DNA from: Rhodococcus qingshengii JCM 15477
Lineage (GTDB): Bacteria; Actinomycetota; Actinomycetes; Mycobacteriales; Mycobacteriaceae
Assembly: GCF_023221595.1 (NCBI RefSeq)
Contig: NZ_CP096563.1
Coordinates: 2,586,501 to 2,650,500 of the forward strand
DNA: 64,000 nt
Direction of reading: 5' to 3'
Shown: one piece after another, positions 24,309 through 39,615 of the stretch
How positions within the stretch are numbered: the stretch's first letter is position 1
How the letters are laid out: each line of letters opens with the position of its first letter
Made by a program: the position numbers and the translations under genes
The notes under the pieces: model-generated
Seen by the model: the letters and a program-made list of their open reading frames with translations, nothing else
What the model was told of the DNA's origin: nothing
Databases searched by the model: none

Positions 24309-26123
24309 ATGAACACTCGGCATTTCTCTCGTAGTCGCTCGGCCCAACTGTTGGCCTCCTGCACCGTGATTTTCTTGGCGGTGGGGATCAGTTCGTGTAC
24401 TCCGAAACCCGCCGGCCCCGAGCCCGTCGCGCAGCAGTTCCTGAGTGCGTTCGGTGACAGGGATATCGACGAGGCAGCAAAACTGACGGACCGGCCTGAC
24501 TCCGCGGGTCCTGTATTGAGTGACACCTGGGATGCGCTCCAGGCCGAGTCGATGACTGCCGAGACCACGTCGGTGAAGATGAACGGTGACACAGCGACGG
24601 TCGGCTACACCTACGAGTGGCACCTTCCGAAAGACCGCGTGTGGACGTACGACGGCGAGCTGCAGATGGGACGCAAGGACGGCGACTGGTCCGTCCGGTG
24701 GAGTTCGACGGACGTTCACCCGCGCCTCGGTGACAAGCAGACGATGTCGTTGCGGGCAACCGCGGCGCCGCGAGCGCGGGTCAACGAGCATTCGGGCACG
24801 GATGTCCTGGTGCCGGGAATTGTCTACCGAGTGAAGTTCGATCGCTCCAAGAGCAACGACATCATCGGTTCCGCAAACAATCTCGCAAGTGTTCTCGGTC
24901 GGTTCGATTCTTCGCTGACGGGTCAATCGATCGCCGAATCCTCGACGGCCGTCAAGGGCGACTATCTGGTGACCCGCCTGCGCAGTGACGACTACGACCA
25001 GGTATCGGCGCAACTGGGAGCCATCTCGGGAGTATCTGTCTCGGACGAATCGGATCTCGTCTCGACGGACCCGGAGTTCGCGCCGGACCTTCTCGGGCAG
25101 ATCAAGAAGACGATCATCGACGAGGTCGACGGCAAAGCCGGCTGGAGTGTCGTCACGGTCAACCAGAACGGCGTCGACACCGATGTGCTGACCGAGACTG
25201 CGCCGCAACCTGTTCCGTCGTTCAGTATCAGTTTGGACCGCAACATTCAGATCGCTGCTCAGCGTGCCGTGAACGTGAACAAGGATCAGGCGATGATGGT
25301 GGTCATCGAACCGTCGAGTGGGGCGATCCTGGCTGTCGCACAGAACAAGGCAGCAGACCGCGACGGACCGGTCGCGACGATGGGTCAGTACCCGCCCGGT
25401 TCGACGTTCAAGATCATCACGGCAGGCGCCGCAATTTCGACCGGTCAGGCGACCCCCGACACGATGGTGCCATGTCCTGGCCGGATCGAGATCGGTGAGC
25501 GCAGCGTCCCCAACTACAACGAGTTCTCACTCGGCACGGTGCCGATGGCAACGGCCTTCGCGCGTTCGTGCAACACGTCCTTCGCCAAGCTGGCCAGCGA
25601 GATGCAACCAGACACGTTGACCACTGCCGCAGCGCAGTTCGGCATCGGCCAGGACTACAACGTGGTGGGATTGCCGATCGATTCCGGTTCGGTGCCGCCG
25701 GCGTCGGACCTGGTGCAGCGGACCGAAGACGGGTTCGGTCAGGGAAAGGTCGTGGTCAGTCCGTTCGGAATGGCGATGGCAGCGGCGACGGTCGCGAACG
25801 GTTCGACTCCGGTGCCGCAACTGATTTCAGGGCGCGAAACCACCATCGACGGTGAGCGCCCGGCGATCTCGCCCGCCATGGTCGACGGCCTGCGCGGAAT
25901 GATGCGACTCGTGGTCACCAGCGGTACTGCAGAACGCGTCGAAGATCAGGGTGAGGTGTACGGCAAGACCGGGGAAGCCGAGGTCGAAGGGGGATCGCAC
26001 GCGTGGTTCGTCGGCTATCGCGGGAACCTGGCCTTCGCGACTCTGGTTGTGCGGGGCGGAAGTTCGGACAACGCCGTCGCAGTCACCCGCGACATGCTCA
26101 CCGCCCTGCCTGAAGGCTACTGA
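24309..26123 (+). CDS. Penicillin-binding lipoprotein (class B PBP, PbpLipo type)
   Basis: 604 residues. Lipobox VGISSC near residue 30, then an NTF2-like MecA-type domain (EPVAQQFLSAFGDRDIDEA...), a dimerisation domain, and the transpeptidase core with STFK (PPGSTFKII), SCN (ARSCNTSFAKLA) and KTG (YGKTGEAE). It cross-links peptidoglycan on the outer face. ATG 24309 (MNTRHFSRSR) gives a proper lipoprotein signal. It corresponds to Rv2864c of M. tuberculosis. It ends five bases before the convergent LuxR gene. Confidence 0.95.
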   Translation: MNTRHFSRSRSAQLLASCTVIFLAVGISSCTPKPAGPEPVAQQFLSAFGDRDIDEAAKLTDRPDSAGPVLSDTWDALQAESMTAETTSVKMNGDTATVGYTYEWHLPKDRVWTYDGELQMGRKDGDWSVRWSSTDVHPRLGDKQTMSLRATAAPRARVNEHSGTDVLVPGIVYRVKFDRSKSNDIIGSANNLASVLGRFDSSLTGQSIAESSTAVKGDYLVTRLRSDDYDQVSAQLGAISGVSVSDESDLVSTDPEFAPDLLGQIKKTIIDEVDGKAGWSVVTVNQNGVDTDVLTETAPQPVPSFSISLDRNIQIAAQRAVNVNKDQAMMVVIEPSSGAILAVAQNKAADRDGPVATMGQYPPGSTFKIITAGAAISTGQATPDTMVPCPGRIEIGERSVPNYNEFSLGTVPMATAFARSCNTSFAKLASEMQPDTLTTAAAQFGIGQDYNVVGLPIDSGSVPPASDLVQRTEDGFGQGKVVVSPFGMAMAAATVANGSTPVPQLISGRETTIDGERPAISPAMVDGLRGMMRLVVTSGTAERVEDQGEVYGKTGEAEVEGGSHAWFVGYRGNLAFATLVVRGGSSDNAVAVTRDMLTALPEGY

Positions 26124-26127
26124 CCCG

Positions 26128-26985
26128 TCAGGGGAGCAGTCCCAACCTCCGGGCGGTCACCACGGCTTCGTGGCGTGAGCTCGCGTCCAGCTTTCCCATC
26201 GCGCTTCGCAGATAGCTCTTGACTGTTTCAGGGCGAAGGGAAAGCCGTTGGCCGGCTTCGATGTTGGTGCAGCCGAGTGCGACCTGAGAGAGAACATCCA
26301 CTTCACGCGGTGTGAGCGTGACGTCGGATTCGGCGTCGGCGGTGGGACGCAGCAGGTTGGCCAAACGCTGGGAGAGTCCGCGGAGTTTGGTCTGCAAGTC
26401 GGTGTCGGTGACGGTCTGGGCGACACTGCGTAGTTCGGCGTGGACTCCGCGGATCTCTTCCGAAGACATACCGTCGGCGGTAGTCGCGGCGGCGGCCTGC
26501 AGTAGTTGCAGGCGACGATCGACTTCGTCGCGGATGGCGAACTCCATCCCGAGACGCCGGGATGCGCCGACCATGACGTCTGCTGTGCGGTCACCCAACG
26601 GAGCGGAATCGCGGATCGCGGCGTAGAGCACAGCGCGCGATTTTCCCGAAACCATGACCGGAACGGCGATGATCGAATGCAGGCCCTCGCTGAGAACAGG
26701 ACGGTCGAAGTGATGAGTGATGGACTGCGAATTGCCGTAATCGTTGACGGTGATCGGTGAACCCTGGGCTACGACGCGTCCGCCCATGCCCGAGCGCGGC
26801 GGGATGGCCAAGCCCTTGAGGTTGTTGGTGCGGGTGCCGACGAATTCGCTCAGGTGCAGGGTTCCGTCCTGGACCTCGCCTCCGAACAGCACGGGAACAA
26901 CGCCCTGAGCTGCGATTGTTCGGAGTTCACCTCGCATTGCGTCCCCGTCGCGGGGGCGCAGAAGTGACGAAGCATGTCGGTTCAC
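26128..26985 (-). CDS. LuxR-type regulator with GAF sensor domain
   Basis: 285 residues from GTG 26985 (AAAGGGG upstream). GAF-like domain around residues 60-190 (GMGGRVVAQGSPITVNDYG, HSIIAVPVMVSG) and a C-terminal LuxR HTH (TPREVDVLSQVALGCTNIEA, then ETVKSYLRSAMGKLDA). It is divergent from an acyl-CoA synthetase gene with a GlxR/CRP-like site between. GAF ligand is unknown; acyl-CoA or redox signals are possible. Confidence 0.88.
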   Translation of the reverse strand: MNRHASSLLRPRDGDAMRGELRTIAAQGVVPVLFGGEVQDGTLHLSEFVGTRTNNLKGLAIPPRSGMGGRVVAQGSPITVNDYGNSQSITHHFDRPVLSEGLHSIIAVPVMVSGKSRAVLYAAIRDSAPLGDRTADVMVGASRRLGMEFAIRDEVDRRLQLLQAAAATTADGMSSEEIRGVHAELRSVAQTVTDTDLQTKLRGLSQRLANLLRPTADAESDVTLTPREVDVLSQVALGCTNIEAGQRLSLRPETVKSYLRSAMGKLDASSRHEAVVTARRLGLLP

Positions 26986-27020
26986 GCAGGTACCCCTTTC
27001 TGGGGGTAGTGAAGTTCTCT

Positions 27021-27036
27021 TGTGAGCTAGATCATA
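27021..27036. promoter_or_regulatory. GlxR/CRP-type cAMP receptor site
   Basis: TGTGAGCTAGATCATA fits the palindromic GlxR/CRP consensus TGTGANNTANNTCACA at 11 of 12 defined positions. It lies 80 bases before the acyl-CoA synthetase ATG and 36 before the LuxR GTG. In corynebacteria and mycobacteria such sites control acetate and fatty-acid genes by carbon source. Confidence 0.6.
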
Positions 27037-27115
27037 GGGGGTGAACAGTACGTATGACGAGCCGCCAACGTAACCGGTCGGGCCAACCATACGACGATCG
27101 ATAAGGAGCAAGTTG

Positions 27116-28738
27116 ATGAGCACCGATCCCACCGCACGGGTGCGCGAGCTGCTGGACCAGTACGACACCCCGCATGCCAGCGCCGCAGAATTGCTCTGCG
27201 ATCGGCATCCCGCGGATGGCGTTGCATTCACCGTCGTCGAGGCAGACCTTAGCTCGGTGGACCTCACTTACGGTCATCTACGTGAGCAGTCGGCGCGTTT
27301 CGCGGCAGCTCTGGCCGACCTCGGAGTCGAGCCGGGTGACAACGTCGCGACCTTGATGGGTAAGTCTGCGGACCTGGTGGTCGCGCTCCTCGGTATCTGG
27401 CGCCGCGGAGCGGTCCACGTGCCCTTGTTCACGGCGTTCGCTTCGCCGGCCATCGCTTTCCGCTTGACGGCCAGCGGCGCGAAGGTGGTCATTTCCGACG
27501 CCAATCAGCTCGAGAAGCTCGCGCCGGGAGAGGACATCCCCGCCGACGCAGCGTGGCAGGTCATCGTCGCGGGCGGCGCGGCCGGTGACGAGTTGGACTT
27601 CGACGCACTTGTCGCAGCTCAGGATGCCGAAGACCCGAAGGGCGCTGCTCAGGCAGTCGGCGGCAACGCACCGATGGTGCAGTTGTTCACCAGTGGCACC
27701 ACGGGAACACCCAAGGGCGTGCCGGTTCCGGTGCGCGCGCTCGCCTCGTTCCACGCATACCAGGAGTTCGGCCTCGACGTCCGAGAGGACGACGTGTTCT
27801 GGAACGCCGCAGACCCGGGCTGGGCGTACGGGCTGTACTACGCGTTGCTCGGCCCGCTTGCCGCCGGCACGCGAAGCTTGCTGCTGCACGCCGGATTCTC
27901 CGCGCCGCTGACGTGGCAGATCATCGAGAAGTTCGGTGTCACCAATTTTGCCGCCGCTCCGACTGTCTACCGCAGTCTGCGTGCCGACAAGGCTCCCGTT
28001 CCGGAAGGCATCTCGCTGCGCCGCGCTTCCTCGGCCGGTGAGCCCTTGACTCCGGATGTTGTTGCGTGGTCGAAGAACTCGTTGGGCGTCGAGGTCCGTG
28101 ATCACTACGGCCAGACCGAGCACGGCATGTTCATCGTCAACGCCTGGGCCGACGGACTTCGCGACGATGTCCGTCCCGGATCCATGGGCCGTGCGTTGCC
28201 GGGTTGGTCTGCCGCTGTGCTGGAAGACAATTCGGATGACATCGCACCGGCCCGCACTCAGGGCCGCGTGGCGATCGATACTCACAACAGCCCGTTGATG
28301 TGGTTCACCGGGTACGTCGATGCGCCGGAGAAGACGAAGCAGCGATTCAGCGAAGACGGCCGCTGGTACATCACCGGTGATGCGGGAATGACGGACGAGG
28401 ACGGATTCTTCTTCTTCTCCTCGCGCGACGACGACGTCATCATCATGGCGGGCTACCGCATCGGTCCCTTCGACGTCGAGAGCGTGCTGGTCATGCACGA
28501 GCACGTCATCGAGGCCGCCGTGGTGGGCATGCCCGACGAGTTGCGTGGTGAGGTTCTCGAGGCGTTCGTCGTTCTTCGCGAAGGTGTCGACGGTGACGAC
28601 GAACTCGAGAAGGAACTGCAAACCCTGGTGAAGAAGAAGTTTGCAGCGCACGCATACCCACGCACGGTGCACTTTGTTCCGAACCTGCCCAAGACCCCGA
28701 GTGGCAAGGTTCAGCGGTACATCTTGAGGAAGGGATAA
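27116..28738 (+). CDS. AMP-forming acyl-CoA synthetase
   Basis: 540 residues. Adenylating-enzyme motifs: P-loop LFTSGTTGTPKGVPV, ATP-binding DHYGQTEHGM, hinge YITGDAGMTDEDGFFFFSSR, and the acyl-transfer Lys in TPSGKVQRYILRK near the end. Size and motifs fit the medium-chain/acetyl-CoA synthetase (MACS) group. ATG 27116 follows AAGGAGCAAG. Substrate chain length is inferred only. It is divergent from a GAF-LuxR regulator and followed by a strong terminator. Confidence 0.92.
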   Translation: MSTDPTARVRELLDQYDTPHASAAELLCDRHPADGVAFTVVEADLSSVDLTYGHLREQSARFAAALADLGVEPGDNVATLMGKSADLVVALLGIWRRGAVHVPLFTAFASPAIAFRLTASGAKVVISDANQLEKLAPGEDIPADAAWQVIVAGGAAGDELDFDALVAAQDAEDPKGAAQAVGGNAPMVQLFTSGTTGTPKGVPVPVRALASFHAYQEFGLDVREDDVFWNAADPGWAYGLYYALLGPLAAGTRSLLLHAGFSAPLTWQIIEKFGVTNFAAAPTVYRSLRADKAPVPEGISLRRASSAGEPLTPDVVAWSKNSLGVEVRDHYGQTEHGMFIVNAWADGLRDDVRPGSMGRALPGWSAAVLEDNSDDIAPARTQGRVAIDTHNSPLMWFTGYVDAPEKTKQRFSEDGRWYITGDAGMTDEDGFFFFSSRDDDVIIMAGYRIGPFDVESVLVMHEHVIEAAVVGMPDELRGEVLEAFVVLREGVDGDDELEKELQTLVKKKFAAHAYPRTVHFVPNLPKTPSGKVQRYILRKG

Positions 28739-28742
28739 ACCC

Positions 28743-28790
28743 TGCTGTGCGCCTTTATTAACCCCCGGCGGTTAATAAAGGCGCACAGCA
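28743..28790. terminator. Bidirectional terminator
   Basis: Stem TGCTGTGCGCCTTTATTAAC with perfect complement around a short GC loop; AT-rich inside and G/C outside. It separates the acyl-CoA synthetase from the convergent phosphonate operon end. Confidence 0.85.
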
Positions 28791-28793
28791 AGG

Positions 28794-29579
28794 TCAGCGC
28801 CGACGAATTCTGCCGACCACCATGAGGGCGACCAGGGTGACTGCGAGCAGCAGTGTCGTATTTGCTGCGGCAAGAAATACCTGGCCACGGTCGGTGAGTC
28901 CGAAGATGCTGACCGGCAAGGTCTTCCATGTCGCCGGGTAGACCATGACCGTTGCGCCCAGCTCACCCATCGACAGTGCGATGGAAAGCCCGGCGGCCGC
29001 ACCCAACGCTGGGAGCAGCAGCGGTAGCGTTACCCGTGTCAGCACCCGCACCGGGCCGGCGCCGAGTGATTCGGCAGCTTGACGGTAGGCGGGATCGAGC
29101 CGTTCGAGCGCGGCCGATACGGAACTGAAGGCAAAGGCAAGCACCAAAACCGTGTGAGCGAGAATCACGATCCACTTGGTGCCGCCGAGCAGTAGCGGGC
29201 GCTCGTTGAAAGTGATGAGCAGACCCAAGCCGATCGAGACCGACGGAACCGCAATCGGTAAATGGAATACGGCATCGGTGATGCGCCGCAGCCACATCGG
29301 TGCCTCACGCGAGGCCAGCGCGGCCCACGTTCCGACGATCAATGCCAATGCCCCCGCGATGAATGCAGTCTGCAAACTGACGATCAGGCTGGCGAAGTGC
29401 TCATCGGACAGCGCCGTGGAGAAGTTCTTGCCGCCGAGATTCGACGGGAGTGGACCGGTCCACGATCCGGCCAAGGCAGCCGCGACGACGGTGGCGATGG
29501 GCGCGACGAAAACCACCGCGACGACCAGGGTGAAGAATCCGAGTACGAGGGCCCTAGAGCTTCGTGTCCACAGCAGCAC
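28794..29579 (-). CDS. Phosphonate-type ABC transporter permease (PhnV-like)
   Basis: 261 residues, six membrane helices. The inner-membrane EAA loop (RQAAESLGAGPVRVLTRVTLPLLLPAL) contacts the ATPase. Starts at GTG 29579, overlapping the preceding permease gene by 26 bases, so coupled. It is the last gene of the operon FAD oxidoreductase-PhnX-like-binding protein-ATPase-permease-permease. Family members in this arrangement import 2-aminoethylphosphonate (AEP) or close analogues. Confidence 0.87.
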   Translation of the reverse strand: MLLWTRSSRALVLGFFTLVVAVVFVAPIATVVAAALAGSWTGPLPSNLGGKNFSTALSDEHFASLIVSLQTAFIAGALALIVGTWAALASREAPMWLRRITDAVFHLPIAVPSVSIGLGLLITFNERPLLLGGTKWIVILAHTVLVLAFAFSSVSAALERLDPAYRQAAESLGAGPVRVLTRVTLPLLLPALGAAAGLSIALSMGELGATVMVYPATWKTLPVSIFGLTDRGQVFLAAANTTLLLAVTLVALMVVGRIRRR

Positions 29580-30456
29580 GGCTGCCTCCCATCAATCTGT
29601 TGAAGGTGAATCGGTAGAGGCAGTACAGGCCGAGTGAGAGTGCGACCTGGACCGTCGCGATCACTGCCGCGCCGGGCAAGTCGAAGGTGACAATGCCGCG
29701 GGTGTAGATGAGGACCGGCAGAGTTACGACGTCTTTAGCCCCGGTGAAGAGCACGATGCCGAATTCATTCAGCGTCATCAGAAGCACGAGCGATCCACCG
29801 GCCAGGAGGGCCGGCCACGCTTCCGGCATCACCACCTGCCGCAGAACTCGGACGGGTGACGCGCCGAGACTGGCTGCCACGTCGAGTTGTTCACGCGGAA
29901 TCTGGGTGAACGCTGCCAATAGCGGACGCACGACAAAGGGTGTGAAGAAAGTGATTTCGGCCGCGATCACACCGAACGGAGTGTTGAGGAAATTCAGTGG
30001 GCCGCTCGCATCGCCGGTGATGCGGACGATCAAGGCGTTGACGGCGCCGGCTGTCCCGTACAGGAACGTGAACGCCAGCGTGATCAGGAAAGACGGCAGG
30101 GCGAGCACCGTGTCGATCAATCGCCCCACCACCTTGGATCCGGCGAACGGAACGAAGGCAAGCACCAAGGCGAGGAAGGTTCCCAGGATCAGGCAACCCA
30201 GGGTCGACGCCACGGCGATTTGGATGGTCCGCCAGAGCGCGGTTCTGAACAGTTCCGAACCGAGCACCGAAGACCACGTGGACAACCCGGTGCCATCTGC
30301 GGTGCTCAGAGATTCCGTGAGGACACGTGCGGTGGGATAGACAGCAAACACGAGGACAAGAAGCAGTGGTGGCAGCGTCCAGCCGATCCGGCGCCACGCG
30401 ATCGGGTCTTTGTGCTGGGGCGCAGCGGTTTCGGGGCGTTCCAGGGTTGTCGTCAT
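29554..30456 (-). CDS. Phosphonate-type ABC transporter permease (PhnU-like)
   Basis: 300 residues. N-terminal tail then six helices; EAA loop VAASLGASPVRVLRQVVMPEAW. Start ATG 30456 (MTTTLERPETAAP) overlaps the ATPase stop as ATGA. Together with the next permease it forms the channel of the AEP-type importer. The first ~20 residues are cytosolic and hydrophilic. Confidence 0.88.
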   Translation of the reverse strand: MTTTLERPETAAPQHKDPIAWRRIGWTLPPLLLVLVFAVYPTARVLTESLSTADGTGLSTWSSVLGSELFRTALWRTIQIAVASTLGCLILGTFLALVLAFVPFAGSKVVGRLIDTVLALPSFLITLAFTFLYGTAGAVNALIVRITGDASGPLNFLNTPFGVIAAEITFFTPFVVRPLLAAFTQIPREQLDVAASLGASPVRVLRQVVMPEAWPALLAGGSLVLLMTLNEFGIVLFTGAKDVVTLPVLIYTRGIVTFDLPGAAVIATVQVALSLGLYCLYRFTFNRLMGGSRAAVDTKL

Positions 30457-31628
30457 GGGTGGCGATCCGCCGGAACCAGGACACTGCCGTCCGTGGGCAG
30501 GACGACGCCCACTTCGGTGTCGACCGGTCGTTCGTCGTGCCCTGGAACATCCGCGTCGACGCGGACATCGTCGAGGCCACGTACAGCCAGCGTCAGACGC
30601 GTCGTGGAACCGCGCCAGACGCTCGAGACGATGCGCGCCGGGAATGATCCTCGTGCGCCGAGGCCGGTTACGGCTACCGCGTGTGGACGAACACACAGGT
30701 AGGCGTCCATGTCGGACTCCCATTCGATGTGCCCGATCTCGGGCTGCGGGGCGTGAGCAGTGAACGGCGTGCCACCGATCGAGACCAGCGCGGAGGTGCC
30801 GATGACGCGTGTGACGGTGCAGGGCAGCAGGTTGGCACCCCCGAGGAACGCCGCGGTGAAGCTGGACGGCGGACGTTTCCACAAGGCCTCAGCGGTGTCG
30901 ATGTCCGCGAGTCTGGCGTTGCGCATCACTGCGATTCGGTCTGCGAGCGCCAGGGCTTCACTCTGATCGTGCGTCACATAGAGCATGGCTGTGTCAGGTA
31001 GTGCTGCGCGCAGTCTCGCCAGTTCGCCGAGCATGCTCTCGCGAAGTTGAGCATCCAGGGCGGCCAACGGTTCGTCGAGGAGGAGTACTCCAGGGCGAAT
31101 TGCCAACGCTCGGGCAATGGCGATTCGCTGCTGTTGACCGCCGGAAAGTTCACGGGGAAGCCGCTTTCCGTACGCCGACATCCCGACCATGTCGAGGGCT
31201 TCGGCCACGCGAGGGCCGATCTCCGACCGCGGCACGCGATGGGCTCGGAGTCCGAAGGCTACGTTTTCGGATACTCGCATGTGCGGGAAGAGAGCGTACG
31301 ACTGAACGACGACGCCGATACCGCGTTGTGCGGGAGGCAGATTGGTGATGTCTCGGGTGCCGAGCTTGACGGAACCGGACGTGGGGCGGACAAATCCCGC
31401 GAGGGCCTTCAGAGCGGTCGACTTGCCGGATCCACTGGGCCCCAGCAGTGCCACAGTTTCACCCGGCGCCACTCGTAGATTGAAATCGACGAGTGCATGG
31501 GTTGCGGTCTTCCCGCGGCCGTAGGCGACGTTGACGCGATCGAACGTGATGGCCGGAGCAGAATGTTCGATCGCTCCGTGAACACCGACGGTCTCGGGGA
31601 GCGTCCGCCCCAGTCTGGTTCTTGCCAT
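30453..31628 (-). CDS. ABC transporter ATPase (PhnT-like)
   Basis: 391 residues. Walker A GPSGSGKST, Q-loop SYALFPHM, signature LSGGQQQR, Walker B LLLDEPLAALD and His loop THDQSEA, then a C-terminal TOBE-type domain (around residues 290-391). It energises uptake of the phosphonate. Start ATG 31628 follows the binding-protein gene by two bases, so the operon is tight. An upstream in-frame extension to 31709 is rejected. Confidence 0.9.
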   Translation of the reverse strand: MARTRLGRTLPETVGVHGAIEHSAPAITFDRVNVAYGRGKTATHALVDFNLRVAPGETVALLGPSGSGKSTALKALAGFVRPTSGSVKLGTRDITNLPPAQRGIGVVVQSYALFPHMRVSENVAFGLRAHRVPRSEIGPRVAEALDMVGMSAYGKRLPRELSGGQQQRIAIARALAIRPGVLLLDEPLAALDAQLRESMLGELARLRAALPDTAMLYVTHDQSEALALADRIAVMRNARLADIDTAEALWKRPPSSFTAAFLGGANLLPCTVTRVIGTSALVSIGGTPFTAHAPQPEIGHIEWESDMDAYLCVRPHAVAVTGLGARGSFPARIVSSVWRGSTTRLTLAVRGLDDVRVDADVPGHDERPVDTEVGVVLPTDGSVLVPADRHP

Positions 31629-31630
31629 GA

Positions 31631-32680
31631 TCAGCTCCCGGTGGCTTTCTGGTAAGCGGCGATGTCGGCGTCGAGCGAGCTGAGGACGTCGTTCCAGTTC
31701 GGGGTCCACACGTTGACGCCCTGCAGAACTCCGGAAGGCGTGTTCTTGTCGGTGGATTCACCGGCAGCGCTTCGGACGTCCTCGCGGACCGATACGCCGA
31801 GTGCATCGGTGGCGACGGTCTTCTGGGATTCTTCGGAGAGCAGGAACTCCATCAACTTCTTGGCTTGTTCGCTGCTCGGTGCGCTCTTGGCGAGGCCCAT
31901 CACGTAGGGCAGTGCAATGGTGGTGCGAGTGCCGTCGGCTCCAGCGGGGAAGAAGATGTCGAACTTCGATCCGTCGTCGGTGATGGAGGCGAGGTTCATC
32001 TGGACGTCACCGTTGGCGACCAGCAGCTCTCCGTTACTGACCTTGGGCTGGAGCTTTCCGGTGGAAGACGAGGGTCCGACGTTGTTGGCCTGGAGCTTTC
32101 CGAGGTAGTCGAGTGCTCCTTCCTTACCCATCAGGTGCTGGAGCAGCAAGAGCACCGCGGTACCGTCGCCGGCCTGGCCGGGCGTGGAGTACTGCAACTT
32201 GCCCTTGAACTGGTCAGTGAGCAGATCGTCCCAAGATTGTGGGGCGGGTGATGCAGTCGGATTGGCGATGAACGAGAGGTAATTCTCGACGACGGGTACG
32301 TACTTGCCGGCGTCGTCCTTCTCGTCGGTAGGAACGGCGGAGGTGTCGATTCCGCTGGGCTCGAGCAGACCTTGGGCGTCGGCCTTCTGGATGAACGGGG
32401 GCAGCGTGATGATCACGTCTGCCTGTGGGTTGGACTGCTCCTTTTCGACGCGGGAGACGACCTCGCCGGATCCGGCTTCCACGAGGTTGACGGCGATACC
32501 GGTCTGCGCGGTGAAGGCGTCGAATCTTCCCTTGTACCAACCGGACAGGCCGTCGGCGCTGTATACGGTGACGGTCTCGGTGTCTGATCCGGCAGCAGTG
32601 CCGGTGCCACCGCAGGCAGTGGTGAACGAAAGAACGGACACGGCGAGAGCGGCCGCAGCGATGCTCGGGCGTAGACGCAT
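31631..32680 (-). CDS. Phosphonate (2-AEP type) ABC transporter binding lipoprotein (PhnS-like)
   Basis: 349 residues. Lipobox at Cys23 (LSFTTACGG), then a class of extracellular binding fold (TVTVYSADGLSGWYKGRFDA, VISRVEKEQSN, WDDLL). Family homologues are named AEP ABC transporter substrate-binding. It feeds the permeases encoded downstream. A HAD phosphonatase-like gene lies 26 bases upstream in the same operon, supporting the phosphonate role. Confidence 0.88.
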   Translation of the reverse strand: MRLRPSIAAAALAVSVLSFTTACGGTGTAAGSDTETVTVYSADGLSGWYKGRFDAFTAQTGIAVNLVEAGSGEVVSRVEKEQSNPQADVIITLPPFIQKADAQGLLEPSGIDTSAVPTDEKDDAGKYVPVVENYLSFIANPTASPAPQSWDDLLTDQFKGKLQYSTPGQAGDGTAVLLLLQHLMGKEGALDYLGKLQANNVGPSSSTGKLQPKVSNGELLVANGDVQMNLASITDDGSKFDIFFPAGADGTRTTIALPYVMGLAKSAPSSEQAKKLMEFLLSEESQKTVATDALGVSVREDVRSAAGESTDKNTPSGVLQGVNVWTPNWNDVLSSLDADIAAYQKATGS

Positions 32681-32705
32681 GACGATTCCTTTTTCGGAGG
32701 TGAGA

Positions 32706-33383
32706 TCAGGAGTGGGTGAGGAGTTCGGCGAACTCCGTCACGGACGGGACGATGTGGGTGGCTCCGGCGTCGCGAAGCTGTTGCTCGTCGTGTGCGCCGG
32801 TCAGAGTTCCGGCGACGATGGATGCGCCGGAACGAATGCCGCTGAGCACGTCGTTGGACGTGTCGCCGAGTACGGCGATCTGGTGGACGTCGTCGATCGA
32901 AAGTTTGAGCAGGGCAGCCAGAATCAGGTCCGGGTGCGGTCGACCGCGACCGGCCTCGGCGGGGGAGAGGGTGAGATCGGCGAGGGTTTCCCAGCCGAGC
33001 GCGACGAGGAGTTTGTCCTGCGTCGATCGGCTGAACCCGGTGGTCAAGGCAACTTTGATGCCGGCCTCGCGCAAAGTGGTGATGGCTTTCTCGGCGCCGG
33101 GGATCGGCTCGGCCAGGCCCTGGTCGATGAGGGAGTCGTACGTGGTTTCGAAGGCGGCGTTCGCGGCCTGGGCGCGGTCTTCGTCACCGAAGATCGCCCG
33201 GAACACGACGATCTTCGACTGGCCCATCGTGTCGAGGACGTACTGGCGAGCGGCGTCGGCTTCCGGGCCTTCGGCGGGCAGTCCGCCGGCTTCAGCGGCG
33301 GCAGCGAAGGCGCGAAGAACCAGTCCGTCGTCGGCGACGGTGGTGCCGGCCATGTCGAGAACGGCAAGGGTGATCGGAGACAT
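32706..33383 (-). CDS. Phosphonatase-like HAD hydrolase (PhnX-like)
   Basis: 225 residues. The HAD nucleophile is D10 in LDMAGTTV: the second position is Ala (A12), as in phosphonoacetaldehyde hydrolase, not Asp. K57 in the cap (DTMGQSKIV) aligns with the Schiff-base Lys of PhnX (MGLLKI). R in AGRGRPHPDL and GDTSND in motif IV are also present. These fit C-P bond cleavage of phosphonoacetaldehyde or a close analogue. It is shorter than classical PhnX. Operon partner of an FAD oxidoreductase instead of the usual PhnW transaminase. Confidence 0.88.
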   Translation of the reverse strand: MSPITLAVLDMAGTTVADDGLVLRAFAAAAEAGGLPAEGPEADAARQYVLDTMGQSKIVVFRAIFGDEDRAQAANAAFETTYDSLIDQGLAEPIPGAEKAITTLREAGIKVALTTGFSRSTQDKLLVALGWETLADLTLSPAEAGRGRPHPDLILAALLKLSIDDVHQIAVLGDTSNDVLSGIRSGASIVAGTLTGAHDEQQLRDAGATHIVPSVTEFAELLTHS

Positions 33384-33408
33384 GAGAAGTCTTTCTTGTC
33401 GGAGAGAT

Positions 33409-34536
33409 TCAGAGACCGAGCTGGTCGGCGGTTTGTTCCGCCAGTGCCGGGCCGAGCGTCATACCGCGGCCACCGGGGCCGGCAACCACCCAGACGTTGT
33501 CGGCGGCTTGTGCGCGGTGAACAAGTTGTGAGGGGTCGATGCACTGGCTGTAGACGCCCGCCCAACGCTTGACGATTGGCGGAAGATCGCGTCCCAGAAG
33601 TGTTTCCACGACTCCGGACAGATGGCGATAGGGCGCCTCGTCGACATCGAAGTCGAAGGGTTCCTCGTATTCGTGGGTGTCGCCGATGGTCAGCCCGCCG
33701 TGCAAGCGCTGCACGCACAGGAGTTGCATGCGGTGCTCCTCGGCAGTCGGTTCCTGCGGCTGCACTGTACGGAGGTGATCGAGGGCAGATCCGGCGAAAC
33801 CCGGGTAGTAGCGGAAGCTGTCACCGTCAGCGATTGCGGTGGTGAGCTTTTCGCCGAGTGGGGCGCTCTGCATCATCTGCAGGCGCACACGGCGCAACGG
33901 GAGATCGCCGGCGAGATCGCGAGCCAATCCGCCGAGTGTTGCTCCGGGGCAGACGATCACGAGATCGGCGTCGAAGCTGCGACCGTGGTCGTCGCGGATG
34001 TGTGCGCCGGAGGTGGTCGTCGTGATCTCGCGGGCTTCCGTTCCGGCGTGGAAGGTGTAACGGCCAGTGGATTCGAGGTAAGAACGGATGGCGGGGAGCG
34101 CTTGCCGTGACTCGACAGCGGCGTCCAGCGTGCAGTGCAGTCCGCCGAGAAACTTGCCCCGGAGCGCGGGGTTGACGACGCGAACGGCGTCGGGATCCAG
34201 AAGCGCGAACCCTCGGTTGTCGGCGTCCGGCCGAGAGAACGCTTCCTGCGCGACCGCGACCTCCTCCTCGGTGCGCATGAGGGTGATGGAGCCGGCTGGG
34301 CGGTATCCGACGCCGGGGACACGGGCGGCAAGGTCTGCCCACAGTTCGCGCGAGCGCAGCGCAGCTTCGAGTTCGTGCGGGGCTCGCCCGGATACCCAGA
34401 CGAGGCCGAAGTTCCGTACCGTGGCACCGCGGGCTTCGGGCTCACGTTCGAGATGGATGACGTCGTGTCCCCGACGGATTGCCTCGTCGGCGTGCGCCGT
34501 TCCGAGGATCCCTCCGCCCACAATCAAAATTCGCAT
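33409..34536 (-). CDS. FAD-dependent amine oxidoreductase of phosphonate cluster (TIGR03364 type)
   Basis: 375 residues. Rossmann GGGILGTAHADEAIRRGHDV and ADE-rich FAD dinucleotide site, then DAO-like fold with ending VVAGPGGRGMTLGPALAEQ. Such DadA-like enzymes next to PhnX-like hydrolases are proposed to deaminate oxidatively an aminophosphonate (2-AEP, an N-methyl or a hydroxy variant), giving the aldehyde for the hydrolase. The first gene of the operon; PhnF-like operator 17 bases upstream. Confidence 0.87.
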   Translation of the reverse strand: MRILIVGGGILGTAHADEAIRRGHDVIHLEREPEARGATVRNFGLVWVSGRAPHELEAALRSRELWADLAARVPGVGYRPAGSITLMRTEEEVAVAQEAFSRPDADNRGFALLDPDAVRVVNPALRGKFLGGLHCTLDAAVESRQALPAIRSYLESTGRYTFHAGTEAREITTTTSGAHIRDDHGRSFDADLVIVCPGATLGGLARDLAGDLPLRRVRLQMMQSAPLGEKLTTAIADGDSFRYYPGFAGSALDHLRTVQPQEPTAEEHRMQLLCVQRLHGGLTIGDTHEYEEPFDFDVDEAPYRHLSGVVETLLGRDLPPIVKRWAGVYSQCIDPSQLVHRAQAADNVWVVAGPGGRGMTLGPALAEQTADQLGL

Positions 34537-34552
34537 GTAGAGATAGTGACGT

Positions 34553-34566
34553 TTGGTCTAGACCAA
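34553..34566. promoter_or_regulatory. PhnF-type operator 1
   Basis: TTGGTCTAGACCAA, a perfect 14-bp palindrome, 17 bases before the start of the phosphonate operon. It resembles the TGGTATAGACCA repeats bound by PhnF of M. smegmatis. Confidence 0.8.
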
Positions 34567-34599
34567 TAGGGGGAATCGAGACGAACTCCAGGTTAACAA

Positions 34600-34613
34600 T
34601 TGGTATAGACCGA
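34600..34613. promoter_or_regulatory. PhnF-type operator 2
   Basis: TTGGTATAGACCGA matches operator 1 at 12 of 14 positions and lies 47 bases from it, 20 bases before the regulator start. Two sites suggest that the repressor controls both its own gene and the operon. Confidence 0.78.
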
Positions 34614-34632
34614 ATTCTTGTACGCTTGCGCC

Positions 34633-35376
34633 ATGAATCAGCAGACGTCCACCGGGCCGGGGACCTCGAGCGTCGTGATCGAACCGGAGTTGAAGTACTA
34701 CCGGGTGCGCACCGAGATCGAGACCATTCTCAGTGGGCTCGAGGAGGGCGACGCAGTCCCGTCCGAGCGGGAATTGGCGGCGCGGTTCACAGTCGCTCGC
34801 GAGACGGTCCGTCAAGCGCTTCGTGATCTTCTTGTCGAAGGGCGAATCGAGCGGCGGGGGCGGGGCACTGTCGTCGCGAGTCCGAAGTTGGTTCAGCCGC
34901 TATCGATTCGTTCCTATACCGAAGGTGCTCTGAGCGCTGGGCGAGTACCCAGTCGTAAGGTTGTGACCTTCGAACGAATGTCGGCCGACGACGGTCTCGC
35001 CACGGAATTGGGTATCGAACCAGGTGACAGCGTCGTTCATCTCGAGCGTGTTCTCTTCGCCGACGGAGAGAAGATCGGACTCGAATCAACGTTCCTGCCG
35101 GACAGCAGGTTCGGTGAGATGCTCGACGCTTTCGATGCGACGACGTCGCTGTACGCGGCTATCCGTTCCATCGGCGTGGTCTTTGCCTCCGCAACCGAAC
35201 GGATCGAGACGGTGCTCGCTTCACCGCGGGAGGCAACCCTCGTCGAGTCCACCACCTCGATGCCGATGCTTCTATTGCACCGGACGTCTGTCGACCCGGA
35301 CGGTGTGCCGATCGAGCGCGTTCGTTCGCTCTACCGCGGCGACCGTATTGCCTTCTTGACGACTCTTCGCGAGTAG
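34633..35376 (+). CDS. phnF: GntR/HutC family repressor of phosphonate operon (PhnF-like)
   Basis: 247 residues. N-terminal winged helix (PSERELAARFTVARETVRQA, LRDLLVEGRIERRGRGT) and C-terminal UTRA ligand domain (SIRSYTEGALSAGR, VVHLERVLFADGEKIGLEST). It is divergent from the phosphonate operon with two operators in the 97-base spacer. Start ATG 34633 (MNQQTSTGP) is chosen; the upstream frame runs through the operator. Probable ligand is the aminophosphonate or its product, as in PhnF (phosphate response) and AEP regulators. Confidence 0.88.
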   Translation: MNQQTSTGPGTSSVVIEPELKYYRVRTEIETILSGLEEGDAVPSERELAARFTVARETVRQALRDLLVEGRIERRGRGTVVASPKLVQPLSIRSYTEGALSAGRVPSRKVVTFERMSADDGLATELGIEPGDSVVHLERVLFADGEKIGLESTFLPDSRFGEMLDAFDATTSLYAAIRSIGVVFASATERIETVLASPREATLVESTTSMPMLLLHRTSVDPDGVPIERVRSLYRGDRIAFLTTLRE

Positions 35377-35478
35377 GAGGGGCGTCGAGGGGGTCTGCTG
35401 TTACCGGGAACGATAGGCACTCCCAGGCCCGTGGAATCTGTTCTGTACTGGACTCCATCAAACGGGAGGACAGTGAAC

Positions 35479-36330
35479 ATGGGTGACAAGAAGGTCTGGT
35501 TCGTAACCGGCGCAGGCCGGGGGATGGGAGTCGATATTGCTCAGGCGGCTCTTGCCGCCGGGCACGCGGTGGTGGCAACGGGGCGTGATGCGGACCGTGT
35601 TTCTGCAGCGATCGGTGCGCATGACGACCTGTTGGTGATTGCCTTGGACATCACCGACGATCAAGCCGCATATGCTGCGGTGGACACGGCAGTTGCACGA
35701 TTTGGTGGAATCGATGTACTGGTGAACAACGCCGGAAACTTCTACGCCGGGTTCTTCGAGGTTGTCAGTCCGGCGCAACTTCGCGCTCAGATGGAGACCA
35801 ACTTTTTCGGGCCGATCAATGTGACACGGGCGGTGTTGCCGGTAATGCGTAGGCAACGGAGTGGACGTGTCGTGACTGTCAGCTCGCTTGCGGGCCTGGT
35901 TGGTCAGGAGTTTTGCGCAGCCTACGCGGCGTCGAAGTTTGCGCTGGAGGGTTGGATGGAATCATTGCAATTCGATGTCGAACCGTACGGAATCGGGACG
36001 ATGATCGTGGAGCCGGGATTCTTCCGGACCGAACTGCTTGTCGAGGGTGCGTCGTCGGTCTGGCCGGAATTGTCGATAGACGATTACGACGCTCGGACCG
36101 GCGAGACCGTCGAAGCGTGGAAGAGTATGAACGGTGCCCAGGGCGGGGATCCGGTGAAACTTGCCGCGGCACTTGTGGCACTTGTCGATTCGCCGCTACC
36201 CCCACGTCGTTGGGTCGCCGGTGCCGATGCAGTGTCCGTGGTTGAGCAGAAAGCCCACCAACTACTCGATCAAGTTGAAGCCCATCGCGGTTTGTCCTCG
36301 TCGCTTGCCCACGTGGACGTGACGACCTGA
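35479..36330 (+). CDS. Short-chain dehydrogenase/reductase
   Basis: 283 residues. Classical SDR signatures: TGAGRGMG coenzyme loop, NNAG, catalytic Ser (VTVSSLAG) and YAASK. Residues TGRDADRV suggest NADP preference (Arg after the second strand). Extended C-terminus (about 190-283). ATG 35479 is preceded by GGGAGGACAGTGAAC; GTG 35473 is another option. Substrate is unknown; flanked by the phosphonate regulator and a TetX-like monooxygenase but on separate transcripts. Confidence 0.9.
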   Translation: MGDKKVWFVTGAGRGMGVDIAQAALAAGHAVVATGRDADRVSAAIGAHDDLLVIALDITDDQAAYAAVDTAVARFGGIDVLVNNAGNFYAGFFEVVSPAQLRAQMETNFFGPINVTRAVLPVMRRQRSGRVVTVSSLAGLVGQEFCAAYAASKFALEGWMESLQFDVEPYGIGTMIVEPGFFRTELLVEGASSVWPELSIDDYDARTGETVEAWKSMNGAQGGDPVKLAAALVALVDSPLPPRRWVAGADAVSVVEQKAHQLLDQVEAHRGLSSSLAHVDVTT

Positions 36331-36345
36331 TCCGAGTTTGTCAGG

Positions 36346-37473
36346 TCACGGGAGTGAGGTGAACATGTCCACGAGCCCCTGGGGTGCGTTCTCGCCGAAG
36401 CACATGTCCAGTCCATCAGCGGACTGTTGTGCCGCCGCGGCGCTGCGTGGGAATAGGCGCTCTTCGTAGACAGCTAGCCCTTCCTCCGTGCTGCTGTGCG
36501 ACGCGATCGCCTGGCCGAGTTCCGCGCCGTCGAGCATTGCCAGGTTCGCACCCTCTCCGGCAAACGGCGACATGACGTGTGCCGCGTCCCCGAGCAGAGT
36601 GACCCCGGGAGTACGGCTCCAACTGTGGCCGATGGGAAGGGTATGGATGGGGCGAGGGGTCAGCGAGCTGTCGGCTTCGACGATCAGTGAACGCAGTGAC
36701 TCGTCCCAGTCCGAGAAGTGTTCCAGCAGAACCTTCTTCGCGATGTGATCGTCGGAGAAGTCGACACTCGCTGCCCAGCTCTCGGGAACTCGCAGGGCGG
36801 CATAGATGTGCAGACTGTTGTCGGTCTCACGGTGGGCGAGGAAGCCCTTGTCGGCACTGAGTGCGAACATCATTCCGCCGCCGACGGTTTCAGCGGCATC
36901 CACGTGCTGGTTGTCGGCGTCGTGAAGGTCGAACTCCACGAAAGATATTCCGGTGTACGCAGGAGTGTCGTTTGAAACCAGTGGACGGATTTTCGACCAC
37001 GCACCGTCGGCGCCGACCAGGAGATCGGTGGTGAAGTGGGTGCCATCCGCGAGGTGAACTTCGTGTCGACCATCCGGCAACGGATGAGCACTGCGGACCT
37101 TGGCTCCCCAGTGGAGTGTTTCCTTCGGAATTGAGCTGAGCAGTAGGTCACGCAGCTGGCCGCGGTCGATTTCCGGGCGGTCGCCGTCTCCGGTGTCCTG
37201 CTCGCTCAGGTGCACGACGGCATTTCGATCGAGGACGCGTGTCTCTTCCCCGCCTTGATGAACGAGGGCGCGGAACTCCTCATAGAGGCCGGCGGCACGA
37301 AGCGCGATCTGACCCGAGTCTTCGTGGATGTCGAGCATCCCGCCTTGAGTTCTGGCTGTCGGTCCGGATTCGAGATCGAATACCGCCGAATCGATTCCGC
37401 GGAGATGGATGACTCGGGCGAGGGTGAGGCCGCCGAGGCCGGCGCCGATGATTGCGATGGGGTAGTGGTTCAT
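36346..37473 (-). CDS. FAD-dependent monooxygenase, TetX/PHBH-like
   Basis: 375 residues. Rossmann GAGLGGLTLAR, the DG motif LLVGADGAWSKIR, and GDAAHVMSPFAGEGANLAM; all FAD-binding elements of group A flavin hydroxylases. Sequence resembles tetracycline-modifying TetX and related hydroxylases, but substrate is undefined. It is in an operon downstream of its TetR regulator (37483-38169; gap about nine bases) under a double palindromic operator. Confidence 0.88.
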   Translation of the reverse strand: MNHYPIAIIGAGLGGLTLARVIHLRGIDSAVFDLESGPTARTQGGMLDIHEDSGQIALRAAGLYEEFRALVHQGGEETRVLDRNAVVHLSEQDTGDGDRPEIDRGQLRDLLLSSIPKETLHWGAKVRSAHPLPDGRHEVHLADGTHFTTDLLVGADGAWSKIRPLVSNDTPAYTGISFVEFDLHDADNQHVDAAETVGGGMMFALSADKGFLAHRETDNSLHIYAALRVPESWAASVDFSDDHIAKKVLLEHFSDWDESLRSLIVEADSSLTPRPIHTLPIGHSWSRTPGVTLLGDAAHVMSPFAGEGANLAMLDGAELGQAIASHSSTEEGLAVYEERLFPRSAAAAQQSADGLDMCFGENAPQGLVDMFTSLP

Positions 37474-37482
37474 GGTGGGTTC

Positions 37483-38169
37483 CTAAGAAGTGAGTGGGGT
37501 GTTCTCGATGCCCGTGATGAGCGTGCGGAATCCCCAGGAGAGGCGCGCGGTGGGTTCACCGGCAAGTAGAGCTGTTGCATGGCCTGCGACGAGTGGGTGC
37601 GTCTGCGGGTTTGCGTTCTGGATTGCGTCGGTCAGCGCGCTCCATTGGGCATCCGCGTCGGCGGAATTGTTCGGCGCAGAGTGTTCGGCGGCAGTGGACG
37701 TCGCGTACTGCAGTAGCAAGTCCACGCCCCACGCGGCCTGACCTGGAGGGACTTCGCCTTCGTCGAGCAATGCCAGCAGGCGCTCGAGCAGGCGCACGTA
37801 GTGAACTCCGCTGGGCCGGGAAACGAGAGCCGACTGGGCGAGGCCGGGATGATCGAACAGCACGGCCGTGTACGAGGTCAACACCCGTTCAAGGCGAGCT
37901 TGCCAAGTGCCGGAGGAATTTTCGGCGAGGTCCACGACTCCGAGGAGTTCGTCGAGAACCGCGGCATGCAGTTCGACTGTGTTGCGCACGTACACATACA
38001 TCGATGCCGGCCCGGTGTCGAGTTCGAGGGCGAGTCGACGCATCGTCAATTTCTGCAAGCCCTCCGACCGCAAGATTTCCACCGCGGTACTGACGATGCC
38101 CTCGCGTGTCAGAGCGGGTTTGGCCGGACGATTGCGACGGCTCGACGGACTTGTTGGCTGAGTGGGCAT
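37483..38169 (-). CDS. TetR family repressor
   Basis: 228 residues. HTH LTREGIVSTAVEILRSEGL then LTMRRLALELDTGPASMYVYV. The C-terminal ligand domain is TetR_C-like. Start ATG 38169 (MPTQPTSP); an extension to 38232 would run across the operator. It is promoter-proximal in an operon with the monooxygenase gene, a familiar self-regulated detoxification layout. Confidence 0.9.
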   Translation of the reverse strand: MPTQPTSPSSRRNRPAKPALTREGIVSTAVEILRSEGLQKLTMRRLALELDTGPASMYVYVRNTVELHAAVLDELLGVVDLAENSSGTWQARLERVLTSYTAVLFDHPGLAQSALVSRPSGVHYVRLLERLLALLDEGEVPPGQAAWGVDLLLQYATSTAAEHSAPNNSADADAQWSALTDAIQNANPQTHPLVAGHATALLAGEPTARLSWGFRTLITGIENTPLTS

Positions 38170-38182
38170 GATTTCACCGTAC

Positions 38183-38211
38183 ACGAACATGTTCGTAACG
38201 AACATGTTCGT
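38183..38211. promoter_or_regulatory. Double TetR operator
   Basis: Two perfect palindromes ACGAACATGTTCGT at 38183-38196 and 38198-38211, centre to centre 15 bases, 14 bases upstream of the tetR start. Confidence 0.85.
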
Positions 38212-38256
38212 TGAGTCACGTGCTGATGTCACGAATCACATGCTGATGTGAATGGG

Positions 38257-38364
38257 CTACATGCCCGTACCGCCGGAGAGCATTGCGATCGTCAGCAGGA
38301 TGCCGCCGACTATGCCCACGAGCGGGCTATCGCTGTTGAGTGGCCAGTCGTTCAACGATCCCAT
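38257..38364 (-). CDS. Small membrane protein, 35 residues
   Basis: ATG 38364 follows GAAAGAGGCGCTC. The product begins MGSLNDWPLNSDSP, then one hydrophobic segment (LVGIVGGILLTIAMLSG) and ends GGTGM. It is orphan in context, lying between the TetR operator and a terminator-like inverted repeat. Strong ribosome site and one clear helix favour a real microprotein. Function unknown. Confidence 0.55.
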   Translation of the reverse strand: MGSLNDWPLNSDSPLVGIVGGILLTIAMLSGGTGM

Positions 38365-38375
38365 GAGCGCCTCTT

Positions 38376-38425
38376 TCGGGTTTCGATCTGTCGACGGTCG
38401 AGCCTATCGACAGATCGAAACCCGA
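38376..38425. terminator. Perfect 19-bp inverted repeat
   Basis: TCGGGTTTCGATCTGTCGA at 38376-38394 and its complement at 38407-38425, 12-base loop. It lies 41 bases downstream of the beta-lactamase-family stop codon and just upstream of the microprotein start, so it is a terminator for the former and perhaps a 5' leader hairpin for the latter. Confidence 0.7.
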
Positions 38426-38466
38426 GATGTCACTTTCGTCCGAATTGTGGATCGGACCCGAGGTGA

Positions 38467-39615
38467 TCAGCCGTAGACGTTGCCCGGGCTGATCAACTTG
38501 GTGATCGGCACCATCAAAGCACTGGTCAGGTCGGTCTCTCCGTCGATGTCGGTGTTGATGAAGACGACCAGGGTTGTGTCCTTCTCGGGCAAGTAGACCG
38601 AGACTGTCTTGTAGCCGGGCAGGCTTCCGTTGTGACCGATCCAGCCGCCGCTGTTGAACAAACCGAGTCCGTAGCCGGAGCTGTCGTCCCCTTCGCTCAA
38701 GCTCACGGTTTGCAGGCGCTGCTTCTGAGTGGCGTCGGTCAGGAGATCGCCTTTGGCCAGCGCCGGAACCCAGATGCGCATGTCGTCCAACGACGAGATC
38801 ATTGCACCCGCGGCGCCGCCCCACGACGGATTCCAGTCCGTCGCCGCGGTCACGGCTCCGTCGAGCGTTTGGTTGGTGTACCCCTGAGCGTGTGGTGTCG
38901 GGAACGCGTTGGTGGTGGGAAAGCTGGTGTGCTCCATTCCGAGTGGTGTCGTGATCTTGGTGTCGATGACGTCCGACAGTGTTGAGCCGGAGACCTTTTC
39001 GATCACCATGCCCAGCAGAACAGTGTTGGTGTTCGAGTAGTCGACGGTGGTCCCTGGTCGAAGTTGGAGTGGGAGGTCCTTGATGTATCCGACGAGTTCC
39101 TCCGGTGTGAAAGTTCGGCGGGGATCCGAAAGATATTCCATCACAAACTGTTCGGACGTCGTGTAGTCCACGAGGCCGCTGCGCATTCCTGCCAGGTGAC
39201 GCAAGCTGATCGCATCACCTTCCATGACGCCGTCGACGTACTTGGAGATCGGATCATCGAGACCGATCTTTCCCTCGTCGACCAATTGCAGCAGGGCGGT
39301 CACGGTAAATGTTTTGGTGACGCTGCCGATCCGGTGGTAGAAGTCGGTTTCCATCGGCGCTTTGGTTGCCGTATCCGAGACTCCTGCAACCTTGACGTAG
39401 TTGCCGTCGGGCCCCCAAATGCCCACCATCGCACCGGGAATCCCGGTCGAATTCACCGCTGCGTCGACGATCGAATCGAGCTGGTCGGTGATGGTCGAGT
39501 CCATGATCTTGTCGGATGTGTCTGTGGATTTGTCCGTGCTGCAGCTGATTACAGCTCCGACAACCATGGCGCTGCACAGGCCGACAAGCAGGATGCGTCT
39601 TGCTCCGGTTTTCAT
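38467..39615 (-). CDS. Serine hydrolase lipoprotein, beta-lactamase/D-Ala-D-Ala carboxypeptidase family
   Basis: 382 residues. Lipoprotein signal (VVGAVISC, Cys25), then a class C-like fold with catalytic S98-V-T-K101, YSN (DYSNTNTVL), and HNG (GWIGHNGSLPG). Such proteins hydrolyse D-amino acid peptides, esters or lactams at the cell surface. ATG 39615 (MKTGARR) chosen over a longer frame. No regulator adjoins it. Confidence 0.9.
   Translation of the reverse strand: MKTGARRILLVGLCSAMVVGAVISCSTDKSTDTSDKIMDSTITDQLDSIVDAAVNSTGIPGAMVGIWGPDGNYVKVAGVSDTATKAPMETDFYHRIGSVTKTFTVTALLQLVDEGKIGLDDPISKYVDGVMEGDAISLRHLAGMRSGLVDYTTSEQFVMEYLSDPRRTFTPEELVGYIKDLPLQLRPGTTVDYSNTNTVLLGMVIEKVSGSTLSDVIDTKITTPLGMEHTSFPTTNAFPTPHAQGYTNQTLDGAVTAATDWNPSWGGAAGAMISSLDDMRIWVPALAKGDLLTDATQKQRLQTVSLSEGDDSSGYGLGLFNSGGWIGHNGSLPGYKTVSVYLPEKDTTLVVFINTDIDGETDLTSALMVPITKLISPGNVYG

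Follow-up and report, generated by a model that had tools for sequence, protein, structure and literature searches.

The operon and its divergent regulator gene

We analysed a window of 64,000 nucleotides from Rhodococcus qingshengii JCM 15477 (contig NZ_CP096563.1). Our subject is an operon in this window that probably serves aminophosphonate degradation. Seven reading frames occupy positions 28794-35376. Six are minus-strand genes, read from 34536 down to 28794. The seventh encodes a GntR-type regulator and starts in the opposite direction at 34633 (Table 1). The first two operon genes encode a flavin adenine dinucleotide (FAD)-dependent amine oxidoreductase and a haloacid dehalogenase (HAD) hydrolase. 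The others encode an ATP-binding cassette (ABC) importer. Intergenic distances, starting from the FAD gene, are 25, 25, 2, -4, and -26 bases, and the PhnU-like permease start overlaps the ATPase stop as ATGA. In an NCBIfam search, four of the six operon proteins passed a family cut-off. For the importer, these were the binding protein, through NF011620, and one permease; TIGR03227 stayed under its cut-off. The ATPase, the second and last permease, and the GntR protein fell below theirs, though the best matches of all three were still phosphonate families. An earlier note, made from the letters alone, described six tightly packed genes opposite a PhnF-like regulator. All of these frames are present and the family searches match its labels, with the regulator below the PhnF cut-off. 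No RNA elements were found at the gathering threshold in 26000-38500.

The same genes recur elsewhere. We compared 80 named relatives' loci, chosen by their FAD match, some of which end at contig edges. An HAD match is present in 77 of these, that of locus L089 being only an 80 amino acid piece, and a GntR match above 150 bits in 72. All four PhnSTUV-type importer parts occur in 52. Other loci carry PhnCDE-type genes, some with an HpnZ-type alcohol dehydrogenase; the transporter alternates between PhnSTUV and PhnCDE. Cut-offs were passed by PhnE (TIGR01097) and PhnC (TIGR02315) of L159 and by the dehydrogenases of L153 and L159 (TIGR03366). The PhnD of L085 scored below its cut-off (173.6 of 261.1). 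The gene arrangement is far beyond chance expectation.

Table 1. Features of the operon region, with positions in the window and family or structure matches (bits unless stated)
Feature	Position	Strand	Match
FAD-dependent amine oxidoreductase, PbfD/HpnW type, 375 aa	33409..34536	-	TIGR03364 349.5, cut-off 285.1
HAD hydrolase, phosphonatase-like, 225 aa	32706..33383	-	TIGR03351 235.2, cut-off 218.9; PhnX TIGR01422 69.1 of 220
2-aminoethylphosphonate-type substrate-binding lipoprotein, PhnS-like	31631..32680	-	NF011620 487.7, cut-off 310; TIGR03227 PhnS 360.6 of 395.3; 4r6y E 4.6e-91
ABC ATPase, PhnT-like	30453..31628	-	TIGR03258 346.5 of 499.2, under cut-off
ABC permease, PhnU-like	29554..30456	-	NF011624 418.6 (cut-off 247), TIGR03226 288.6 (283.5), scored from 30444
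ABC permease, PhnV-like	28794..29579	-	TIGR03255 224.3 of 358.7, under cut-off
GntR/HutC-type regulator with UTRA domain, PhnF-like, divergent	34633..35376	+	PF07702, PF00392; 3f8m E 2.6e-62; TIGR02325 116.8 of 156.8, under cut-off
Operator-like palindrome TTGGTCTAGACCAA	34553..34566	.	
Second operator-like site TTGGTATAGACCGA	34600..34613	.	start 47 bp from first site's start

The oxidoreductase falls in TIGR03364, the family of the PbfD oxidases

The FAD protein shares 96% identity with a protein of Rhodococcus sp. NPDC055024 and has a fold of the glycine/sarcosine oxidase type. Its family, TIGR03364, includes enzymes with published activities. PbfD1 and PbfD2 convert N-methyl-2-aminoethylphosphonate (N-methyl-AEP) to phosphonoacetaldehyde (PAA), and also oxidise 2-aminoethylphosphonate (AEP); of the substrates published for this family, N-methyl-AEP is the best, and sarcosine gave no reaction with the PbfD enzymes tested (PMC10590968). 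The family annotation had proposed hydroxy-AEP, in whose place the 2023 authors put N-methyl-AEP; in the available part of that paper we found no hydroxy-AEP result for a PbfD enzyme (PMC10590968). The PbfD1-type protein of Acinetobacter baumannii record L031 likewise exceeds the TIGR03364 cut-off, at 296.8 bits. In a tree of 62 rows, drawn from 142 FAD loci and built with L156 left out and without PbfD2 or an outgroup, a branch of 1.83 separates the clade of the window protein from this L031 type. Separately, we observed that records L031, L039, and L177 are filed as plasmids (4.1, 11.9, and 4.1 Mb) yet look chromosome-like, with only 37, 10, and 45 listed genes.

We also scanned 18 genomes, our own included and 14 of them controls, for other phosphonate routes. 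No match above cut-off for PhnW, PhnX, or PhnJ lies elsewhere in the R. qingshengii genome. PhnW passed in none of the 18, the best match in our genome being 57.1 of 400.8 bits, and PhnX also passed in none; note that no control genome passed for either. PhnJ, of the carbon-phosphorus (C-P) lyase, passed in two genomes, ours not among them, with Escherichia coli as the positive control. Phosphonate synthesis by the host was considered and set aside, phosphoenolpyruvate mutase scoring 128.4 of 319.6 bits, under its cut-off.

The hydrolase keeps a Schiff-base lysine but is not PhnX

In an alignment with Bacillus cereus PhnX, residues D10, A12, and K57 of the window HAD match D12, A14, and K53. 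The HAD also keeps M53, T115, R148, D174, and D178. The earlier note had named D10, A12, and Lys57 as phosphonatase residues, and the alignment bears this out. Its description of the enzyme as PhnX-like needs qualification. The lysine is kept, while V60 and F117 occupy the positions of PhnX His56 and Tyr128, and the PhnX cut-off is failed (TIGR01422, 69.1 of 220). We reject a plain PhnX. By comparison, the PhnX of L031 scores 353.8 against the same cut-off of 220.

These features extend across the HADs linked to an FAD gene. We counted residues, in PhnX numbering, over 90 distinct FAD-linked HADs from 91 aligned rows. The set counts L090, in spite of the 4.4 kb between its HAD end and the FAD gene, and L156, in spite of a broken FAD gene; it leaves out L089 (80 aa), L076, L102, and L122 (no HAD), L183-L211, and L157 (identical to L055). 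The Schiff-base lysine, Ala14, Thr126, Arg160, Asp186, and Asp190 are each present in 90/90, Met49 in 89/90, and Asp12 in 88/90, the remaining two rows being gapped there. His56 and Tyr128 occur in none of the 90; both are present in all seven PhnX rows. Loss of Cys22 was tried as a further sharp difference and rejected: it is absent from 90/90, yet of the seven PhnX rows two have Cys and the other five have Ser. On these residue patterns, we take TIGR03351 to be a family separate from PhnX, with an altered catalytic residue set. A literature search found no biochemistry of TIGR03351.

The structure model of the HAD has a predicted local distance difference test score (pLDDT) of 92.4, and its nearest fold is that of C1-cap phosphatases. 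Foldseek placed a PhnX chain top, in a near tie with others, and VIA-align placed AlnB top. The second Asp of the D-x-D motif has a role in ordinary phosphatases. The window HAD has D-x-A in place of D-x-D, which argues against an ordinary phosphatase.

Oxidase and hydrolase genes travel together

We surveyed 394 Actinomycetes genomes, accepting FAD genes at E up to 1e-60 and HAD genes at E up to 1e-45. Per genome, only the best first-look candidates were scored (four and seven in the two passes). The FAD gene was found in 70 genomes, the HAD gene in 89, and both in 68 (Fisher p 1e-54, relatedness uncorrected). An HAD gene lies within 7 kb of 70 of the 73 FAD places. Conversely, an FAD gene lies within 7 kb of 70 of the 94 HAD places and within 3 kb of 66. 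At one of the three FAD places lacking an HAD (G243:C1:602136-603820), the FAD gene is beside an HAD gene broken into pieces. The reverse is seen at G248:C1:54076-55240, where the HAD is paired with a broken FAD gene.

HADs with no FAD gene within 7 kb are less constrained. Met49 is kept in 4 of these 24 and Lys53 in 17 (L217, among the 24, is poorly aligned). L155 and L219 have both residues intact and adjoin PhnD and PhnC matches; their genomes hold no FAD gene at E up to 1e-60. L153, beside an HpnZ-type dehydrogenase, keeps the lysine and has lost the methionine. Fifteen FAD-less HADs (L161, L162, L165, L218, L220, L221, and L223-L231) share the motif HRSRGCP[KTQ]I[ED], in which Arg replaces Met and, in 4 of 15, Thr or Gln replaces Lys. 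They score 199-213 bits, slightly below the TIGR03351 cut-off. We found no clear phosphonate genes near them, and this group probably has another function. Overall, the Met/Lys pair tracks a phosphonate setting mostly, not strictly. Indirectly, this speaks for a catalytic role of the two residues in that setting.

Hydrolase partners are exchanged on the FAD tree

Of the 142 FAD loci, 119 have a TIGR03351-like HAD nearby, 13 have PhnX, and 10 have no HAD. Counted as 133 distinct FAD proteins, the numbers are 110, 13, and 10. A PhnX partner needs three changes on the FAD tree, each forced by starred branches, and a single clade of PhnX-partnered FADs is rejected (approximately unbiased test, p 4.8e-10). 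Furthermore, L158 and L159 have HADs 55% identical to that of the window, alongside FADs only 33-34% identical. If two kinds of hydrolase work with a single oxidase family, and one of them with two oxidase clades far apart, PAA would be the simplest intermediate for them to share. The swaps of TIGR03351 and PhnX as partners, no fewer than three on the tree, favour PAA as the common product. They may instead reflect an exchange of genes together with a switch in substrate. As a side observation, L184/L234 (G406:C5:303425) is a second TIGR03364 gene, sister of the Gloeocapsa one on the tree; there was no TIGR03351 match in 13 kb around it and no PhnX match in its 1.5 kb flanks.

Paired operator-like sites lie between the operon and the GntR gene

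The two operator-like sites, TTGGTCTAGACCAA and TTGGTATAGACCGA, both lie in the stretch that separates the operon from the GntR gene, with starts 47 bp apart. The exact 14-mer TTGGTCTAGACCAA is found once in the 7.5 Mb genome. In the relatives' loci, an exact GGTNTAGACC-type site is present upstream of the FAD gene in 48/80, rising to 63/80 with one mismatch allowed, and two or more sites are present in 34/80. The density of exact sites, the only kind counted for background, is 3.82 per kb upstream versus 0.0069 per kb in the rest of the loci. Among the rows listed, the 47 bp spacing is repeated in two-site rows of Nocardia, Rhodococcus, and Prescottella, and mycobacterial rows mostly have one site. 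Note that the GntR regulator fails the PhnF model (TIGR02325).

Discussion

We propose that the operon encodes a hydrolytic route for aminophosphonates that needs no PhnW, in which a PbfD/TIGR03351 pair degrades AEP and/or N-methyl-AEP. We put the probability of this at roughly 0.72. Briefly, the PhnSTUV-like importer would take up AEP and/or N-methyl-AEP. The TIGR03364 flavoenzyme would oxidise the amine to an imine, whose hydrolysis would give PAA with ammonia or methylamine; the likely electron acceptor is O2, giving H2O2. Lys57 of the TIGR03351 HAD would then bind PAA in a Schiff base, Asp10 would attack the phosphorus, and acetaldehyde and phosphate would be released. In PhnX, His56 and Tyr128 are credited with activating the water that hydrolyses the Schiff base (PMC7916636). 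The window HAD would have to free the Schiff base without this pair. The divergent GntR protein would repress the operon through the two palindromes and would probably be released by a phosphonate or an intermediate. The earlier note had suggested that the FAD enzyme deaminates oxidatively and feeds a Schiff-base hydrolase. This is supported, with no PhnW over cut-off in the genome. It had also offered N-methyl-AEP or hydroxy-AEP as the substrate. The former gains from being the best published family substrate; the latter is unsupported, as speculation from an old annotation (PMC10590968), and the partner swaps favour PAA.

Several observations weigh against this proposal or qualify it. The HAD also occurs outside the pair: 24 of the 94 TIGR03351 places lack an FAD gene within 7 kb. 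L233 keeps both Met and Lys, yet has no FAD gene or clear phosphonate gene nearby, and L232, also FAD-less, keeps Met and has lost Lys. The FAD tree has weak points, namely long branches (L031/L034 and L037) and an unusual composition in seven rows. No AEP-type binding-protein match was found in 26/80 named loci, some being PhnCDE loci and some cut by contig ends, and no operator-like site within one mismatch was found in 17/80. Lastly, when at most two mismatches are allowed, the 14-base site occurs 20 times in the genome, compared with 26 for a reversed control. This is no enrichment, and the weight of the sites falls on the exact copy, the pairing, and the conservation alone.

Could the substrate be (R)- or (S)-1-hydroxy-2-aminoethylphosphonate? 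Oxidation would then give 1-hydroxy-phosphonoacetaldehyde, cleaved to phosphate and glycolaldehyde, and the lost His and Tyr would mark a pocket reshaped for the hydroxyl. Their replacement in all 90 FAD-linked HADs would fit, as would the HpnZ-type alcohol dehydrogenases at some loci and the substrate proposed in the TIGR03364 family note (quoted in PMC10590968). However, the tested PbfD enzymes take N-methyl-AEP and AEP and yield PAA (PMC10590968), and a separate lyase route, through PbfA, already leads from hydroxy-AEP to PAA (PMC12366243). TIGR03351 and true PhnX also swap as partners on the FAD tree. Hydroxy-AEP as a substrate of the route is possible but unsupported, and we think this version of the pathway unlikely.

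Other amine-bearing phosphonates, such as aminomethylphosphonate or a glyphosate-like compound, have been suggested for Achromobacter HpnW. There, glyphosate induces the phosphonatase whose gene adjoins hpnW, and a simulation pointed to glycine derivatives as preferred by HpnW (PMC11203657). The glycine/sarcosine oxidase fold of our FAD protein would suit such a substrate. The binding protein, however, is well above its AEP-type family cut-off, and the inertness of tested PbfD enzymes toward sarcosine also counts against this (PMC10590968); we regard it as quite unlikely. A further alternative, which we rate as very unlikely, makes the HAD a phosphatase or some other hydrolase and leaves the FAD gene unconnected with C-P cleavage. 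While C1-cap phosphatases are the nearest fold, and an FAD-less TIGR03351 group exists with no phosphonate genes found nearby, the HAD has the D-x-A motif. Lys57 and Met53 are kept in FAD-linked HADs and relaxed in FAD-less ones, and the operon includes phosphonate transporter parts and a PhnF-like regulator.

The proposed PbfD/TIGR03351 route resembles several known systems in part. In pbfD2-phnX of Mariniblastus fucicola, a PbfD-group FAD oxidase also replaces PhnW, with PAA as intermediate, and phnW is apparently absent from the genome, as in ours; the hydrolase there is called PhnX, whereas the window's is TIGR03351 without His56 and Tyr128 (PMC10590968). Achromobacter hpnW-phnX-phnSTU likewise clusters a TIGR03364 flavoprotein, a hydrolase, and an AEP-type ABC importer, and its phnW is located elsewhere in the chromosome. 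It differs in having a true PhnX with His56, a LysR regulator, and PhnHD, where the window has TIGR03351 and a GntR-type regulator (PMC11203657). A plasmid cluster of Tsukamurella tyrosinosolvens (L032) shares TIGR03364, TIGR03351, GntR, and an AEP-type ABC importer; gene order differs, and the FAD and HAD proteins are 34% and 37% identical to ours. The PhnF-phnDCE system of Mycobacterium smegmatis also has a divergent GntR repressor, which binds the promoter region common to both genes at two sites. Unlike our operon, phnDCE imports phosphate (PMC7866108), and the window regulator is below the PhnF cut-off.

The concept of an oxidase substituting for PhnW is already published for other bacteria (PMC10590968). 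What is new here is a hydrolase from a different family with a changed catalytic set. With the FAD/HAD pair, both members of which occur in 68 of the 394 Actinomycetes genomes, as a concrete gene candidate for aminophosphonate use in this class, the operon counts as a new version of a known route. According to a 2021 review, which regarded aminophosphonate use in Actinomycetes as unclear, AEP degradation by Streptomyces extracts saw no later biochemical or genetic analysis, and enzyme systems beyond the enterobacterial one are possible (PMC7866108). The residue pattern also raises a question for enzymology: how a phosphonatase might resolve the Schiff base when it lacks the residues credited with this step. 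If the oxidase acts like the tested PbfD enzymes, the pathway, in contrast to PhnWX, requires oxygen and yields hydrogen peroxide. A wider proposal, which we advance tentatively and put a little short of an even chance, is that TIGR03351 is a phosphonatase with a mechanism of its own. Through a Lys/Met/Asp core, it would cleave the C-P bond of PAA or of a close relative, and it would resolve the Schiff base without His56 and Tyr128, perhaps via Asp18 or Ser56, which are particular to the family. With two distant FAD oxidases, it would form a main hydrolytic route for aminophosphonates in Actinomycetes, and could explain the AEP degradation observed in Streptomyces, for which no gene is known.

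A further FAD gene lies outside the operon. At 36346-37473, adjoining the frame at 37483-38232, the window encodes an FAD monooxygenase whose best match is Tet(X) (157.5 bits against a cut-off of 750); it is probably a general hydroxylase.

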